From: Oceanotoga teriensis
GTDB lineage: Bacteria > Thermotogota > Thermotogae > Petrotogales > Petrotogaceae
Direction: 5' to 3'
Assembly: GCF_003148465.1 (NCBI RefSeq)
Contig: NZ_QGGI01000006.1
Span: 1 to 64,000, forward strand
Length of the DNA: 64,000 nucleotides
Position numbers and translations under genes: made by a program. Shown piece after piece: positions 3,039-63,090 of this stretch. Position 1 is the stretch's first letter, and the number at the start of each line of letters is the position of its first letter. Below the pieces are notes generated by a model. The model was not told where the DNA came from. It ran no database searches and saw only the letters and a program-made list of their open reading frames with translations.

Positions 3039-3476
3039 TTGAACTTCGAAAAAACTAAAATAAGAGAAGCAATAATCGAAACAATTTTTCAAATAAACTT
3101 TTTAGATGTTAGCCTTGAAGAATTAGAAGATACATTTAAAAAAATATCTGATAAAAAAAATATTTCTGAAATACATAAAAAACTTGGCTTAGAATATATA
3201 GAAGATATGAATGAATCTATTGAAGAAATAGATAAGAGTATAAAAAGATATTTAAAAAATTGGAAATTTGAGAGAATAGGAAATATAGAAAAAAGTATAT
3301 TGAGATTATCAATATACGAAATGTATTATAGAGATGACATACCATTTAAAGTTTCAATAGATGAGTCATTGAAGATACTTGAAAAGTATGGAGATGATAA
3401 ATCCATAAAGTTTGTTAATGGAATACTCGATTCTTTTGCAAAAGAGAATATAGTCGGAGCTGATAATGATGAATGA
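3039..3476 (+). CDS. nusB: Transcription antitermination factor NusB
   Basis: NusB is an RNA-binding helical protein that joins NusE and NusA in antitermination of rRNA operons. The 145-residue length, the opening helix KIREAIIETIFQI and the C-terminal signature KFVNGILDSFAKE are characteristic. The start is TTG, two bases after the stop of the preceding gene, with GGGATGA upstream as the ribosome-binding site. The end overlaps the dxs start, so the Gls24 gene, nusB and dxs form one operon. Confidence 0.92.
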   Translation: MNFEKTKIREAIIETIFQINFLDVSLEELEDTFKKISDKKNISEIHKKLGLEYIEDMNESIEEIDKSIKRYLKNWKFERIGNIEKSILRLSIYEMYYRDDIPFKVSIDESLKILEKYGDDKSIKFVNGILDSFAKENIVGADNDE

Positions 3477-5307
3477 AGAGCATCTATATCATGACCTATA
3501 TAAAATGGATTATGAACAATTAGACCTTCTTGCTCAAAAAATGAGAAAATATATAATGGAAACAGTATACTCAAATAATGGGCATTTAGCTTCTAATTTC
3601 GGGGTTGTTGAGTTAACTTTGGCACTCTACAGAGTATTCAATCCAGAAGAAGATGTTGTGATATGGGATACCAGTCATCAATCGTATGTACATAAATTAT
3701 TGACTGGCAGATGGGAAGAGTTTAAAACTCTAAGAAGAATGAATGGAATAAGTGGTTTTACAAATATACATGAATCAAAATATGATAAATTTGGCGCAGG
3801 GCATGCTGGAACATCAATTTCAGCTGCTCTGGGCTATTTTATTGGTGATAAGTGTAATGACAAAAAACGAAATATAATATCAATAATTGGTGATGGTGCT
3901 TTTACATGTGGCATGGCTTTGGAATCTTTAAATCAATTAAAATATATGAACAGTAATGTAAAAATAATATTAAATTCAAATGATATGTCTATATCTCCAA
4001 ATGTTGGAAGTTTATCAACTATGCTATCAAAAATAAGAATGAAAAAAAATTATAAAGATATAAAAAAGAATATGAAAGATATGCTAAATGATTCTGAAAT
4101 AGGTCAAGATCTTGAATTGGTTTTAAAAAGATTAAAAGATGCAGTGAAATATACTATATATAGTGAACCCATAGGTTTTTTTGAAGATCTTGGAATAAAA
4201 TATTATGGACCAGTTGATGGACATAATATTAGAGATTTAGAGCTTTTTTTGAGACTTTTAAAAGATCATGAAGATGGTCCAGCTGTTCTACATGTACTCA
4301 CAACAAAAGGCAAAGGTTTTGAAAATGCTGAAAAAAATCCAGATAAATTTCATGGAGTTTCAAAAAAGACTAATAATCAAAATCTTAGTTATTCTAAAAT
4401 AGTTGGGCATACATTAAGTTATATTCAAAAAGAAAATTTTATTACTTTTACTGCGGCGATGAAAGATGGAACGGGATTAGACATATTAGAAAAGACGAAT
4501 CCAAATAAAATAATTGATATGGGAATAACAGAACCATCAATAGTTACAACAGCAGCAGCAACTTCGCTTGCGGGAGTTTATCCAGTTGTTGATATTTATT
4601 CAACATTTATGCAAAGAGCTTTTGATTCAATAATACATGATGTTGCATTACAAGGAATTCCAGGGTTATACCTTCTGGATAGAGCTGGTTTAGTTGGAGA
4701 AGATGGCCCAACTCATCATGGAGTTTTTGATATTTCATATTTAAGATTAATTCCACAAATAGAAATATTGACTCCATTAAATGGTCAAGATCTTGCCAAT
4801 ATGATTTATACATCTGTAAAAGAAAAACCTTCTAAACCAAGATTTATAAGATTTCCAAAAGAATCAACTACAAAAACTGTAGATGAAATATTGTTAAATT
4901 TAAAAAATATAAATTTAAATTGGAAATACATAAAAACTTCAAATAATAATACTTATGTACTTGCAGTTGGAACTATATCAAATACTGTAAAAAAAGCTTT
5001 AAAAGATTATGATTTAAATATAATAGGTGTTAGAAGTATAAAACCTTTAGATCAATATGTAATAAATGATTTAAAAGAAAATGCTGATAAAATAATAATT
5101 TATGAAGAAAATGCTGAAAAGGGTGGTTTTAATGAAGAAATATACAAACTTTTAAAAGGCAAAGATATTTATAACTATGGAATAAAAGATGAATTTATAA
5201 CTCATGGTTCAAGAAAAGAGTTATTATCATTATGTGGACTTGATGAACAAAGTATAAAAAATCAAATTGAAAGTATTATGAATATAAATAATAAGAAGGT
5301 GAAATGA
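3466..5307 (+). CDS. dxs: 1-deoxy-D-xylulose-5-phosphate synthase
   Basis: This thiamine-diphosphate enzyme condenses pyruvate and glyceraldehyde 3-phosphate, the first step of the MEP isoprenoid pathway. The 613-residue protein shows the N-terminal SNFGVVELTLAL and DTSHQSYVHK motifs, the ThDP/Mg2+ motif GDGAFTCG...NSNDMSIS near residues 143-170, and the transketolase pyrimidine region (TEPSIVTTAAA, then DRAGLVGEDGPTHHG). The start overlaps the nusB end by 11 bases; ATG 3466 or ATG 3469 is possible. It depends on ThDP, as does the TPP riboswitch further along the window, but the two loci are not linked. Confidence 0.96.
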   Translation: MMNEEHLYHDLYKMDYEQLDLLAQKMRKYIMETVYSNNGHLASNFGVVELTLALYRVFNPEEDVVIWDTSHQSYVHKLLTGRWEEFKTLRRMNGISGFTNIHESKYDKFGAGHAGTSISAALGYFIGDKCNDKKRNIISIIGDGAFTCGMALESLNQLKYMNSNVKIILNSNDMSISPNVGSLSTMLSKIRMKKNYKDIKKNMKDMLNDSEIGQDLELVLKRLKDAVKYTIYSEPIGFFEDLGIKYYGPVDGHNIRDLELFLRLLKDHEDGPAVLHVLTTKGKGFENAEKNPDKFHGVSKKTNNQNLSYSKIVGHTLSYIQKENFITFTAAMKDGTGLDILEKTNPNKIIDMGITEPSIVTTAAATSLAGVYPVVDIYSTFMQRAFDSIIHDVALQGIPGLYLLDRAGLVGEDGPTHHGVFDISYLRLIPQIEILTPLNGQDLANMIYTSVKEKPSKPRFIRFPKESTTKTVDEILLNLKNINLNWKYIKTSNNNTYVLAVGTISNTVKKALKDYDLNIIGVRSIKPLDQYVINDLKENADKIIIYEENAEKGGFNEEIYKLLKGKDIYNYGIKDEFITHGSRKELLSLCGLDEQSIKNQIESIMNINNKKVK

Positions 5308-58771: not shown

Positions 58772-58872
58772 AAATAATCCGTTTATTTTATGTTAACTTT
58801 AGATTGATGTAAATGAAATTAATATACTGTATATTTAATTATGTAAATAAAAAAATAAAAGGAGGTAGTGCG

Positions 58873-59001
58873 ATGATAAGATTATTGAAATTAAGATATT
58901 ATATTTTAGCATTTGCGGGAATAGTGTCCCAATTTATTGCTAATTTGCTCAATCCTCAAAAATCATGGGATAGCTCTGCCTCGAAGGTTTTAATTTTTTA
59001 A
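58873..59001 (+). CDS. Small membrane-type peptide, possible signal or leader peptide
   Basis: A 42-residue peptide: basic MIRLLKLRYY, hydrophobic ILAFAGIVSQFIANLL and a polar tail NPQKSWDSSASKVLIF. A perfect GGAGGTAGTG ribosome-binding site lies just upstream, so ATG 58873 is preferred to the in-frame ATG 58813. The family is not recognised. The charge pattern places the N-terminus in the cytoplasm with the tail exported or cleaved off. Two near-tandem terminators follow, then the micro-ORF and exporter genes. Confidence 0.65.
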   Translation: MIRLLKLRYYILAFAGIVSQFIANLLNPQKSWDSSASKVLIF

Positions 59002-59010
59002 ACTAATATC

Positions 59011-59046
59011 AAAGGCCGTGACTATCCATAGTCACGGCCTTTTTTT
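59011..59046 (+). terminator. Intrinsic terminator 1 after the small peptide gene
   Basis: AAGGCCGTGACTA pairs with TAGTCACGGCCTT and seven T residues follow. Its GTGAC/GTCAC core is shared with terminator 2. Confidence 0.9.
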
Positions 59047-59050
59047 GTAT

Positions 59051-59083
59051 AAAAACCGTGACGAAATGGTCACGGTTTTTTTT
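59051..59083 (+). terminator. Intrinsic terminator 2 after the small peptide gene
   Basis: AAAAACCGTGAC pairs with GTCACGGTTTTT around GAAATG, with eight T residues. Its 5' arm (59056-59062) can also pair with the 3' arm of terminator 1 (59031-59037), an alternative structure that would break both terminators. Confidence 0.85.
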
Positions 59084-59111
59084 ATTAAAAATAATTAAGG
59101 GGATGATACAA

Positions 59112-59138
59112 ATGACGAAAAAAGTGATTAAAAATTAA
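59112..59138 (+). CDS. Possible 8-codon micro-ORF
   Basis: The frame MTKKVIKN is preceded by GGGG nine bases upstream, within AAGGGGATGATACAA. Length alone gives no support; it is listed because a ribosome-binding site is present and similar peptides follow. Confidence 0.25.
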   Translation: MTKKVIKN

Positions 59139-59238
59139 TTAATTAGTTTTTAAAAAAATAAAGTTATATAAAAAATATTTTTTTTGAAATAATTATTGAT
59201 TAAATTTAATTAAATTAAAGTTAACGGGAGGAAAAGAT

Positions 59239-59340
59239 ATGAAAAGATTAAAATATTTAAATAAAGAACAAAAAAACGAATTAATAGATAAAATGAATCA
59301 ATATAAAAACATAGTATATGAAATTACACGAAAAATTTGA
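59239..59340 (+). CDS. Micro-protein A, lysine-rich 33 residues
   Basis: It starts at ATG after CGGGAGGAAAAGAT, a strong ribosome-binding site. The product is highly charged and helical in pattern (KYLNKEQKNELIDKM), with no cysteine and no signal peptide. It looks related to micro-proteins B and C. It is first of four genes leading to the exporter pair; the start of B lies ten bases on. The function is not known. Confidence 0.6.
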   Translation: MKRLKYLNKEQKNELIDKMNQYKNIVYEITRKI

Positions 59341-59349
59341 GGTGAAAAT

Positions 59350-59448
59350 ATGAATAAATACTTAGAAAAAATATTGAATAAAAAACAAAAAAAAGAAATA
59401 GAAAACATATATAAATACATTCATTATGATAATATAAGAAAATTCTAA
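59350..59448 (+). CDS. Micro-protein B, lysine-rich 32 residues
   Basis: The ribosome-binding site is GGTGAAAATATG, identical in form to those of larger genes in this window. The product includes KILNKKQKKEIENIY, aligning with the KYLNKEQKNELIDKM block of A, so the two probably arose by duplication. No cysteine or signal is seen. The function is unknown. Confidence 0.6.
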   Translation: MNKYLEKILNKKQKKEIENIYKYIHYDNIRKF

Positions 59449-59460
59449 GGAGATAGAGAT

Positions 59461-59571
59461 ATGAAAAAATTAAAATATATAGAAATAAAAAAAGATATAA
59501 AAAAAACTGAAATAAATATATTTCAAATACTAAAATATGAAGAAATAAAAGTTCAAAAAAAGGTGGCTTAA
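59461..59571 (+). CDS. Micro-protein C, lysine-rich 36 residues
   Basis: It begins after GGAGATAGAGAT and ends five bases before the exporter start. The product opens MKKLKYIEIKKDIKK, like the MKRLKY start of A, and is basic and helical. Its last codons contain the exporter's ribosome-binding site AGGTGG, so the two genes are tightly linked. The function is unknown. Confidence 0.55.
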   Translation: MKKLKYIEIKKDIKKTEINIFQILKYEEIKVQKKVA

Positions 59572-59575
59572 TAAA

Positions 59576-61306
59576 ATGTTTAAAATATTAAAATATTTAA
59601 AAAAATATAAATTATTTACGTTTATATCCATATTAGCAATGTTAGGGTTTACGGGATTAGATCTCTTAAACCCTTATATAACAAAAACTCTTGTAGATAA
59701 AGTATTTGTTGAACAACAATATGATATATTTTTAAAATTAATATTAATACTTATTGGAATAATGATATTAAAATCAATTTTTGCATATACGAGAGAATTT
59801 TTATTTGATTATATAGGAACTAAAGTTATGGGAGATATAAAAAAAGATTTATTTTCGGAAATGCAAAAATATGATTTTTCATTTTTTGATAATAAAAATA
59901 CTGGAGAATTAATGTCAAGAATAGGAGAAGATGCAGAAAATATATGGAATGCTTTAGGATTTGGAATAGGATTTTTAAGTGAAGCAATAATTACATTTAT
60001 ATCAGCAACAACTATATTATTTTATTTAAATTATAAATTAGCTATATTAAGTGTAATTACAATGCCAATAATATTTTATTTAGCTTTAAAAATGGAAAAT
60101 AAAATATCAAAATCCTATGATGAAATATCAGATCAAGCAGCAAAAATAAATACAACAGCACAAGAAAATATTTCAGGAGTAAGACTTGTAAAGGCTTATG
60201 CGAATGAAAAAAAAGAAGTATTAAAATTTTTAAATCTTAATAAACAAAATTATGATTTAAATATGAAAAAAACAAGAATATTTGGAAAATACTATCCAGC
60301 AATAGAATTAGTTGGAAATATGACTATGATAATTGTGATGATTTTTGGTGGAATGCTTACAATTAAAGAAGAAATAACTATAGGTACACTCTTAGCTTTT
60401 ACAGAATATATATGGCTTTTAATATGGCCTATGAGAACTGTAGGAATGTTTATGAATGTTATTTCACAAGCTAATTCATCAGCAAGAAAAATCCAAAAGA
60501 TAAAAGATTATGAACCTAAAATAGTAGATAATAAAAAAGATTTAGAAATAAAAGATTCAAAAATAGTATTTAACAATGTATGGTTTAAATATAATGATAA
60601 ATATATATTAAAAAATATAAATTTGAAAATACAAAAAGGACAAACATTAGCTATAATAGGACCTACTGGATCTGGAAAAACTTCTTTAGTAAACTTAATT
60701 GCAAGATTCTACGAAATAGATAAAGGAAATATATATATAGACAATGAAGATATAAGAAATTACTCATTAAAAAAATTAAGAGAAAATATAAGTTATGTAT
60801 TTCAAGAAAATTTTCTTTTTTCAGAATCAGTAGAAGAGAATATAAAACTTGCAGGAAATGAAAATGATATAAAATTAAACGAAATATTAGAAAATTCTGG
60901 TTCAAAAGAATTTGTAGAAAAATTAAAATATCAAGAAAAAACAATAATAGGTGAAAGAGGGCAGGGATTATCAGGTGGTCAAAAACAAAGGCTTACAATA
61001 GCAAGAGCTTTAAATAAGAATTCAAAAATTATAGTGCTTGATGATGCAACATCTGCATTAGATATGGAAACTGAATATGAAGTATTAAAAAATATAAATA
61101 AATTAAATAAAGAGCAAATAAAAATAATAATAGCACATAGAATATCAGCTGTAAAAAATGCAGATCAAATAGTATATCTTGAAGATGGTGAAATAAAAGA
61201 AATTGGAACACATATGCAATTGATAAACAAAAAAGGAAAATATTATAATATATATTTACAACAATTTAAAGACTTTATAGAAGAAGAAATTGATGAGGTG
61301 ATATAA
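59576..61306 (+). CDS. Heterodimeric ABC exporter subunit with degenerate Walker B
   Basis: This is a 576-residue half-transporter: six transmembrane helices in the first 300 or so residues, then an ATPase domain with Walker A GPTGSGKTS near 362, Q-loop VFQENFLF, signature LSGGQ at 465-469, and Walker B IVLDDATSALD, where Asp490 replaces the catalytic glutamate. This Asp is typical of the degenerate site of Thermotoga TM287/TM288-type heterodimers. It has no peptidase domain at its N-terminus. The ribosome-binding site is AGGTGG inside micro-protein C. It shares its last base with the next gene. Confidence 0.92.
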   Translation: MFKILKYLKKYKLFTFISILAMLGFTGLDLLNPYITKTLVDKVFVEQQYDIFLKLILILIGIMILKSIFAYTREFLFDYIGTKVMGDIKKDLFSEMQKYDFSFFDNKNTGELMSRIGEDAENIWNALGFGIGFLSEAIITFISATTILFYLNYKLAILSVITMPIIFYLALKMENKISKSYDEISDQAAKINTTAQENISGVRLVKAYANEKKEVLKFLNLNKQNYDLNMKKTRIFGKYYPAIELVGNMTMIIVMIFGGMLTIKEEITIGTLLAFTEYIWLLIWPMRTVGMFMNVISQANSSARKIQKIKDYEPKIVDNKKDLEIKDSKIVFNNVWFKYNDKYILKNINLKIQKGQTLAIIGPTGSGKTSLVNLIARFYEIDKGNIYIDNEDIRNYSLKKLRENISYVFQENFLFSESVEENIKLAGNENDIKLNEILENSGSKEFVEKLKYQEKTIIGERGQGLSGGQKQRLTIARALNKNSKIIVLDDATSALDMETEYEVLKNINKLNKEQIKIIIAHRISAVKNADQIVYLEDGEIKEIGTHMQLINKKGKYYNIYLQQFKDFIEEEIDEVI

Positions 61307-63090
61307 TGGCCTATAATGCAAGTAAATTAGATGAAAAAACGATAAGAATGTCTCGAAAAGAATTATTTAAGAGATTATTTTCATATTTAAAACCATTTAA
61401 AAAAACAATTATATTGATAACATTTGTTATGATAATAATAATGTTTGTAAATCTATTAAATCCATACATATTAAAGATATCTATAGATAATTACATAAAA
61501 AATTCTGATGTAAAAGGTCTTTTAATAATTGGGATAATTGGTATAATATTGAATATAATATCTTCAATATTATCTAGATATAGAATAGTAACAATGGGAG
61601 ATATAACAAATAAGATAGTAGTGAATATAAGACATGATTTATATAAACACATACAAAAATTATCTTTTGATTTTTTTGATGAAAGACCTGTTGGAAAAAT
61701 ATTAGCGAGAGTAATAGGCGATATAAATTCATTACAAAATTTTTTTCATTCAATAATAGTTAATTTTTTTCCAGAAATATTGACCATAATAACAGTGACT
61801 ATAATAATGTTAATAATGAATTATAAATTAGCAATAGTAACTTTATTAGTAATTCCATTGCTAATAATGACTTTGGCAGTAATTCAAATACTTGTTAGAA
61901 AAAGATGGGAGAACTTCAGAAAAAAAAGGTCTAATTTAAATTCATACACACATGAAGAATTTTCGGGAATAAAGGTGATACAGGCTTTTAATGCAGAGAA
62001 AAAAGCAGAAAATACATTTTTTAATTATGTGGATGAAATGGTAAATTCATTTATAAATGCAGTAAGATTACAAGATTTTTTAGATCCTGCAATCTTTATT
62101 TCTCAAGGAGTTGGATTGGTGATAATATATACATATAGTTTTAATCTAATAAAAAATAATCAATTAACAATAGGAGAATTATTTGCATTTACATGGTATA
62201 TGTCGATATTTTGGAGACCTATATTCAATATAGCTAATTTTTACAATAATTTAATAACAAGTTTTTCAGCAGCTGATAGAGTTTTTGAAATATTTAATAT
62301 AAAACCATCAGTTAAAGATACAAAAGAAAATAAAATGCCTGAAATAAAAGGAGAAATTGAATTTAAAGACGTGAATTTTTCCTATGATAGAGAAAAAAAG
62401 GTTTTAAAATCTATAAATTTTAAAGTAAAAGAAGGAGAATCAATAGCACTCGTAGGTCCAACTGGAGCTGGAAAAACTACTATAATAAATTTGCTGAGTA
62501 GATTTTATGATCCAAGTGAAGGTCAAATACTTGTAGATGGTAAAGATATAAAAGATTATTCAATAGAAAGTTATAGAGAACAAATGGGAATAATGTTACA
62601 AGATACATTTTTATTTTCAACTACAATAAAAGAAAATATAATTTATTCAAACCCAAATATAAATGAAAAAGAAATAGTAAAATCATCAATAGCTATTGGT
62701 TCTCATACTTTCATACAAAATTTAGAAAAAAAATATGATACAAATGTAAATGAAAGAGGAACAAGATTATCAGTAGGTCAAAGACAATTAATTTCTTTAA
62801 CAAGAGCTATGATAGCAAATCCAAAAATATTAATACTTGATGAAGCAACTTCAAACATAGATACAGAAACAGAACAAAAAGTCCAGCAAGGAATAAAAGA
62901 ACTATTAAAAAATAGAACATCTTTCATAATAGCTCATAGATTATCAACTATAAGAGATTGTGATAAAATATTTTATATAGATAATGGAGAAATAGAAGAA
63001 ATGGGAACACATATGCAATTAATGGAAAAACAAGGAAAATATTATGAATTATATATGACACAATTTAAATTTTTAAAAGAAGGAGTATAA
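61306..63090 (+). CDS. Heterodimeric ABC exporter subunit with canonical Walker B
   Basis: This 594-residue partner has six helices, then Walker A GPTGAGKTT, Q-loop IMLQDTFLF, signature LSVGQ at 488-492 (Val490 for Gly), and Walker B ILILDEATSNID with the catalytic Glu513. The altered signature and the Asp in the partner form one weak ATP site; Glu513 and the partner's LSGGQ form the active one. It exports lipids, drugs or peptides; the micro-proteins upstream suggest peptides. Confidence 0.92.
   Translation: MAYNASKLDEKTIRMSRKELFKRLFSYLKPFKKTIILITFVMIIIMFVNLLNPYILKISIDNYIKNSDVKGLLIIGIIGIILNIISSILSRYRIVTMGDITNKIVVNIRHDLYKHIQKLSFDFFDERPVGKILARVIGDINSLQNFFHSIIVNFFPEILTIITVTIIMLIMNYKLAIVTLLVIPLLIMTLAVIQILVRKRWENFRKKRSNLNSYTHEEFSGIKVIQAFNAEKKAENTFFNYVDEMVNSFINAVRLQDFLDPAIFISQGVGLVIIYTYSFNLIKNNQLTIGELFAFTWYMSIFWRPIFNIANFYNNLITSFSAADRVFEIFNIKPSVKDTKENKMPEIKGEIEFKDVNFSYDREKKVLKSINFKVKEGESIALVGPTGAGKTTIINLLSRFYDPSEGQILVDGKDIKDYSIESYREQMGIMLQDTFLFSTTIKENIIYSNPNINEKEIVKSSIAIGSHTFIQNLEKKYDTNVNERGTRLSVGQRQLISLTRAMIANPKILILDEATSNIDTETEQKVQQGIKELLKNRTSFIIAHRLSTIRDCDKIFYIDNGEIEEMGTHMQLMEKQGKYYELYMTQFKFLKEGV

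Follow-up and report, generated by a model that had tools for sequence, protein, structure and literature searches.

What do four very small open reading frames (ORFs) and a pair of transcription terminators do directly in front of a two-gene ATP-binding cassette (ABC) exporter? The question arises in a 64,000-nucleotide (nt) stretch of Oceanotoga teriensis contig NZ_QGGI01000006.1, which we call the window; all coordinates refer to its plus strand. An earlier reading made from the letters alone (the sequence-only reading) noted here a 42-residue ORF, a terminator pair, three micro-ORFs led by Shine-Dalgarno (SD) sequences and the exporter genes, all of which we found in place, and proposed that the peptides are made with the transporter and perhaps exported by it. 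Our sequence comparisons point to another function: the locus is likely an inducible efflux operon under the control of a ribosome-mediated transcription attenuator. The attenuator would belong to a known kind; its setting and details are new.

The core of the evidence is an RNA switch. A segment within the 42-codon leader ORF (segment B) is complementary to two others: segment A, the SD region of that same ORF, and segment C, which lies in the 5′ half of terminator 1. The pairings A:B and B:C are mutually exclusive, because both need segment B, and both covary. In the window, A:B joins GAGGTAG.GC with GCTCTGCCTC at 58973-58982 (-15.8 kcal/mol; p=0.003 against shuffled sequences in fold and duplex calculations). 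We compared the locus across 103 genomes of the class, in which g1 denotes the window's own genus, represented by one genome, g5 genomes G022-G028, g7 genome G035 and g8 genomes G036/G037. Across these genera, duplex energies range from -15.8 to -18.9 kcal/mol for A:B and from -14.6 to -18.7 kcal/mol for B:C, and are better than those of shuffles in all of them. A covariance model built from g5 only (R1) recovered the sites in the window, g7 and g8, none of which was in its training set. In a nine-sequence alignment, A:B together with terminator 1 (C:D) is 97.6% paired, with compensatory change in 15 of 23 pairs; none of 500 shuffles reaches this level, and at most 47% stays paired when the partners are slid out of register by 1-3 columns. 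The A:B helix itself has changes on both sides in 6 of 12 pairs (four genera), and terminator 1 has compensatory change in 9 of its 11 model pairs. Because the nine-sequence alignment is biased towards the structure to which it was fitted, B:C was counted on a plain, independent MAFFT alignment, where it is 95.8% paired, with double changes in 4 of 9 pairs (slid versions, at most 60%). Segment B is homologous in sequence in all genera. In g5, its pairing with the SD is displaced ~6 nt upstream relative to the register used by g1, g7 and g8; thus, the SD pairing survived a change of partner.

The arrangement around the switch is constant. Wherever the region upstream of an ortholog of exporter subunit A was assembled, we found the leader first, next the two terminators, after them from none to three micro-ORFs (in many cases behind a nano-ORF), and finally the pump. 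Among the 103 genomes, subunit A orthologs, with 52-57% identity, are found in only four genera of the window's family. The model R2 gave strong matches in 9 of the 103 genomes (E values from 4e-15 to 4e-35). Eight of these sites precede the exporter, which is degraded in G024, and the ninth, in G027, stands where a copy has been lost.

Is the leader ORF translated, and does its peptide matter? Genome comparison places it at the corresponding position upstream of the exporter in g5 (MLIKRLFALTLSDSGNSVSIFCDNLAHINYY), g7 (MNLRLFSQSNSWDSFTSKYLSIKI) and g8 (MIRRKFSAVNGIFNLSGIGVSILDSLASVSAS), as in the window (MIRLLKLRYYILAFAGIVSQFIANLLNPQKSWDSSASKVLIF). These leaders share an M..[KR]L[FL]-like beginning and the codons that span segment B, which is read in one common frame in all four genera. 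Among g5 sequences, all indels within the ORF are multiples of 3, whereas those after the leader stop measure 5 and 1 nt, and this pattern argues for translation of the leader. The sequence-only reading described peptide 1 as membrane-type; this holds in the window (mean hydrophobicity 0.60 over 18 residues), but orthologous leaders elsewhere are not hydrophobic, and the hydrophobic stretch is peculiar to the window. We also considered peptide 1 as a protein family and rejected the idea, the weak matches away from the locus containing stops or falling in unrelated frames. Since its RNA is conserved more than its peptide, peptide 1 is better explained as an attenuator leader ORF; the suggestion that it is exported or acts in signalling found no support, and its sequence is best read as that of a leader peptide, not a signal.

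The locus therefore combines the features of an attenuator: a translated leader ORF, intrinsic terminators before the gene, and exclusive antiterminator and anti-antiterminator pairings. During normal translation, ribosomes would finish or leave the leader, and segment B would be covered or re-paired with the SD; in this A:B state, terminator 1 (and 2) would form and transcription would stop. An untranslated leader would also be switched off, because the SD and the anti-antiterminator are one RNA. By analogy with vmlR and bmrB, we infer that an early stall on the leader, for example one caused by a ribosome-targeting antibiotic, would keep the ribosome over the SD and leave B free. Free B would then capture the 5′ half of terminator 1 (B:C), polymerase would read through into the micro-ORFs and the exporter, and the exporter would pump out the inducing or a related compound.

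Several observations weigh against such a mechanism. The B:C pairing of the window is the weakest of the set (6-7 base pairs [bp], p=0.038). With the SD region held unpaired, the window fold that has terminator 1 reaches -71.7 kcal/mol, versus -59.1 kcal/mol with B:C enforced, both calculated at 37 °C and not at growth temperature. Terminator 1 is thus thermodynamically preferred in the window, and any choice of antitermination there would have to be made kinetically; for g7 and g8, the antiterminator either comes close to the alternative in energy or is itself the minimum free energy structure. Furthermore, we identified no stall codon or arrest motif in the leader, and no sigma-70 promoter scored 5′ of it.

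The second terminator adds a further detail. Both terminators are strong and lie on the same strand as the ORFs (0.1 expected in shuffles), and the impression that the pair looks regulatory was borne out. The 3′ arm of terminator 1 is exactly complementary to the 5′ arm of terminator 2 in all four genera, over 7 nt in the window, 8-11 in g5, 9 in g8 and 5 in g7; the stem sequences are wholly different among g1, g5 and g8. Antitermination might pass along as in a row of dominoes, with the freed 3′ arm of terminator 1 pairing with the 5′ arm of terminator 2. When B:C is enforced, some g5 sequences use this arm pairing and the window retains terminator 2; as a thermodynamic optimum, the domino pairing was rejected, being present in some g5 folds and absent in the window. 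The arm match would also follow if a terminator had been duplicated repeatedly.

Could a sensor other than a stalled ribosome set the switch? A protein, a ligand or a specific charged tRNA might act on the leader RNA, with translation of the ORF secondary. The leader does carry a conserved element, GGGAATAGTGT, with no assigned role. This element lies outside A, B and C, is read in a different frame in the window than in g5, and, in the window and at the homologous place in loci L046-L052 and L128, showed no pairing partner common to all. An undescribed binder is conceivable, as no Rfam class reaches its gathering score (Rfam 15 gave 13 weak matches over the leader region). On the other hand, the ORF whose SD takes part in the switch is real and translated in four genera, which makes ribosome occupancy its natural input, and the leaders show no run of one regulatory codon. 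We consider a different sensor unlikely and prefer control by ribosome stalling.

The micro-ORFs raise another possibility, that of the sequence-only reading: a peptide signal or bacteriocin cluster, in which the micro-ORF peptides are substrates of the adjacent pump. These ORFs are real features of the locus. None of 20,000 first-order Markov simulations of 59083-59575 produced three SD-led ATG ORFs with 30 residues or more (0.9% produced one, none two), so an artefact of AT-richness is very unlikely. They are tiny and basic (net charges +5, +5 and +6), each with its own SD, as had been noted, and are separated by 9-12 nt; it is also correct that the last of them holds the ribosome-binding site of the exporter, whose two genes overlap as TAATG. 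The ORFs are co-directional with the exporter and run directly into it, small ORFs hold the equivalent site before orthologous exporters in other genera, and those of g5 and g8 are under purifying selection (ratio of nonsynonymous to synonymous substitution rates, dN/dS, about 0.12-0.28, with dS in g5 partly near saturation). The proposed tie between cluster and exporter therefore stands, and all this would suit a signal cluster. The export of the peptides, in contrast, is unsupported. Neither subunit has a C39 peptidase domain, the peptides are charged amphipathic helices, and the number of micro-ORFs before the exporter varies from 0 to 3 among relatives, with no micro-ORF of 30-40 residues before the intact exporter of G025. 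In addition, related micro-proteins (the SYYEGF family, described below) exist as stand-alone genes away from any exporter, and peptides 2-4 of the window have no detectable sequence relatives apart from the kinship between peptides 2 and 3 (pairwise p=0.0046). By position, peptides 2-4 may be regarded as counterparts of the g5 and g8 micro-ORFs; no homology is claimed. Taken as a whole, a signal cluster is very unlikely. Least probable of all is that the terminators merely end an upstream transcript, with a separate promoter for the exporter operon beyond them and an incidental leader pairing: strong terminators are common between genes and AT-rich promoter-like sites are frequent here, but this leaves unexplained the covarying alternative pairings across four genera, the exclusive linkage to the exporter in 103 genomes and the matching arms of the two terminators.

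The pump that the attenuator would control consists of two half-transporters. Walker B reads LDDATS in subunit A (degenerate site) and LDEATS in subunit B (canonical), a pair that is the hallmark of a heterodimeric exporter with one degenerate ATPase site. Pfam detects only ABC_membrane and ABC_tran in both subunits, whose transmembrane domains begin near residue 16 (A) and residue 35 (B). Among single half-transporter chains, TM288 of Thermotoga maritima is the best PDB match for both; subunit B aligns to it over 572 residues, and subunit A scores 339 bits against it. No NCBIfam equivalog cut-off was reached by either subunit, and a search of genome contigs for named relatives returned only distant exporters (26-31% identity).

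To our knowledge, leader-peptide attenuators that sense drugs or stress and control efflux pumps have been characterised mainly in Bacillota. Here, the attenuator is kept in four genera of a thermophile-rich phylum, the ribosome-binding site of the leader is itself the switch, and the twin terminators have matching arms; for organisms in which genetic tools are scarce, it would offer a directly testable regulator that may respond to antibiotics. The closest parallel is bmrB-bmrCD of Bacillus subtilis, in which a small leader ORF, alternative stem-loops and an intrinsic terminator precede a heterodimeric multidrug ABC exporter; that system requires leader translation and responds to ribosome-targeting drugs, with stalling proposed as the readout (PMC4191407). 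The bmrB terminator lies inside the ORF, whereas that of the window follows the leader stop (PMC4191407). Also unlike bmrB, the window has the leader SD as the anti-antiterminator strand, two terminators whose arms are interchangeable and, between leader and pump, nano- and micro-ORFs; it belongs to a different phylum. The vmlR leader of B. subtilis likewise arranges anti-antiterminator, antiterminator and terminator around a translated upstream ORF, but that ORF has 3 codons and an SD left single-stranded ahead of its first hairpin, the SD of vmlR itself is sequestered as well, and the target is an ABC-F ribosome-protection protein (PMC9226507). The mef(E)/mel leader of streptococci, as described, resembles the window's in the attenuation of efflux-gene transcription, there inducible by macrolides, and differs in its pumps and leader peptide (PMC4335068). 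Predicted attenuators termed ABC-leaders also precede ABC exporters, a multidrug export operon of lactobacilli among them; the text describing them does not mention Thermotogae and shows no leader/SD switch of the window's kind (PMC2965389). As for the pump, TM287/TM288 of T. maritima is a heterodimeric exporter as well, and subunit B matches TM288; subunit A also matches TM288, and orthology to TM287 is not claimed.

The features of the locus are collected in the table. One of them, a nano-ORF, was overlooked by the sequence-only reading; g5 and g8 likewise have nano-ORFs after terminator 2. A DNA search of the cluster against its own genome gave just low-complexity AT-rich matches within large genes.

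Table. Features of the leader, micro-ORF and exporter region of the window (aa, amino acids).
Feature	Position	Strand	Remarks
Segment A, leader SD	58861..58872	+	5′ strand of anti-antiterminator (fold, duplex, covariation)
Leader ORF (peptide 1), 42 codons	58873..59001	+	MIRLLKLRYY...SWDSSASKVLIF; SD AGGAGG; counterparts in g5, g7, g8
GGGAATAGTGT element	58917..58927	+	Near-exact in g5 leaders; resembles GGGATTGGTGT of g8 and GGGAATGGTGT of G071
Segment B, GGGATAGCTCTGCCTC	58967..58982	+	Partner of A (terminator can form) or C (antiterminator)
Terminator 1, 14-bp stem	59011..59042	+	5′ half bears segment C (CTATCC, 59022-59027)
Terminator 2	59051..59080	+	5′ arm CCGTGAC complementary to terminator 1 3′ arm GTCACGG
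Nano-ORF MTKKVIKN, 8 codons	59112..59138	+	SD-led; between terminators and micro-ORF 1
Micro-ORF 1 (peptide 2, 33 aa)	59239..59340	+	SD; paralogous to micro-ORF 2
Micro-ORF 2 (peptide 3, 32 aa)	59350..59448	+	SD
Micro-ORF 3 (peptide 4, 36 aa)	59461..59571	+	SD; holds exporter SD AAGGTGG in final codons
ABC exporter subunit A, 576 aa	59576..61306	+	IIVLDDATSALD: D replaces catalytic E after Walker B
ABC exporter subunit B, 594 aa	61306..63090	+	Canonical Walker B, ILILDEATSNID

Some relatives keep only part of the locus. In G027 (L050, G027:C11:43973-44138), the leader and terminator 1 persist and the exporter is lost, which leaves a relic or a leftover regulatory RNA. In G024 (L022, G024:C11:200056-204054), the pump genes appear interrupted, with leader and terminators intact; decay or an assembly error is possible. 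R1 and R2 also matched weakly in g3, g9, g10, g29 and at other places. The examples looked at (L054, L055, L119-L122) resemble ordinary terminators without a leader and were rejected. A weak R2 match in G071 (L123) was retained as a candidate. This genome, of genus g27 in another family, has a like plan at L128 (G071:C6:3000-10500, reverse complement about 2280-2660), where the two-gene ABC exporter that follows is a different one (29-34% identity). There, the SD GGGTTGTCCAA pairs with TTGGACAGCCC within a 39-codon ORF, the terminator loop GGGTTGT can pair with ACAGCCC, and the leader contains GTGGGAATGGTGT, which resembles the GGGAATAGTGT element seen in g1 and g5. A DNA search for further copies of this leader in its family gave just short matches to its terminator region. 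Judged by its sequence, this single site is possibly a leader-peptide attenuator of like plan outside the window's family.

A profile search with the g5 micro-ORFs found homologs at other loci, with a K/R-rich start followed by the consensus SYYEGF(D/N)..(M/L)..L..I..E..R. Members of this family occur only in genera g1, g2, g4, g5, g6, g7 and g8 of the window's family, as one to three SD-led ORFs in tandem. A TTGAC(A)/TATAAT-like promoter directly 5′ and a terminator directly 3′ mark many of them as stand-alone micro-genes. No Pfam or NCBIfam family matches them, and the AlphaFold model of a member from the window's own genome is a single predicted helix (residues 2-34; mean predicted local distance difference test score, pLDDT, 84.6). 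The g5 micro-ORFs and the g8 micro-ORF m2 are members (for m2, 0 of 1000 shuffles score as well), and g8 m3 probably is (14 of 1000). Peptides 2-4 of the window, for which YKNIVYEITRKI and YKYIHYDNIRKF suggest membership by eye, were rejected, since their scores are matched by 613, 726 and 235 of 1000 shuffles. At several g5 and g6 loci, SYYEGF ORFs lie just upstream of major facilitator superfamily (MFS) or ABC transporters. This unnamed family of 30-45-residue micro-proteins is conserved and neighbours pumps of both kinds, MFS and ABC, at several independent loci. A bolder proposal joins it to the terminators: one stall would disarm both of them, domino-fashion, and read-through would yield fast-evolving helical micro-proteins of the SYYEGF family, which would work together with efflux pumps from several superfamilies. 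We offer this as a tentative idea, rather doubtful as it stands.

SYYEGF ORFs recur just 5′ of multidrug-type transporters of different superfamilies: in g6, upstream of MFS genes (L100, L105 and L115) and of an ABC exporter gene (L103 and L104), and in g5 upstream of an MFS gene (L078 and L082-L084). Elsewhere, the window's own genome has stand-alone SYYEGF micro-genes in tandem pairs, with SD and a following terminator, at L085 (G000:C7:17500-25500, minus strand; ORFs at 3924-4031 and 4046-4150 of the reverse complement) and at L114 (G000:C18:41079-41183). At L086 (G036:C169), three tandem SD-led micro-ORFs of 35-36 residues, two of them SYYEGF-type, sit at 3368-3699 between amino-acid biosynthesis genes and are followed by a terminator-like hairpin.

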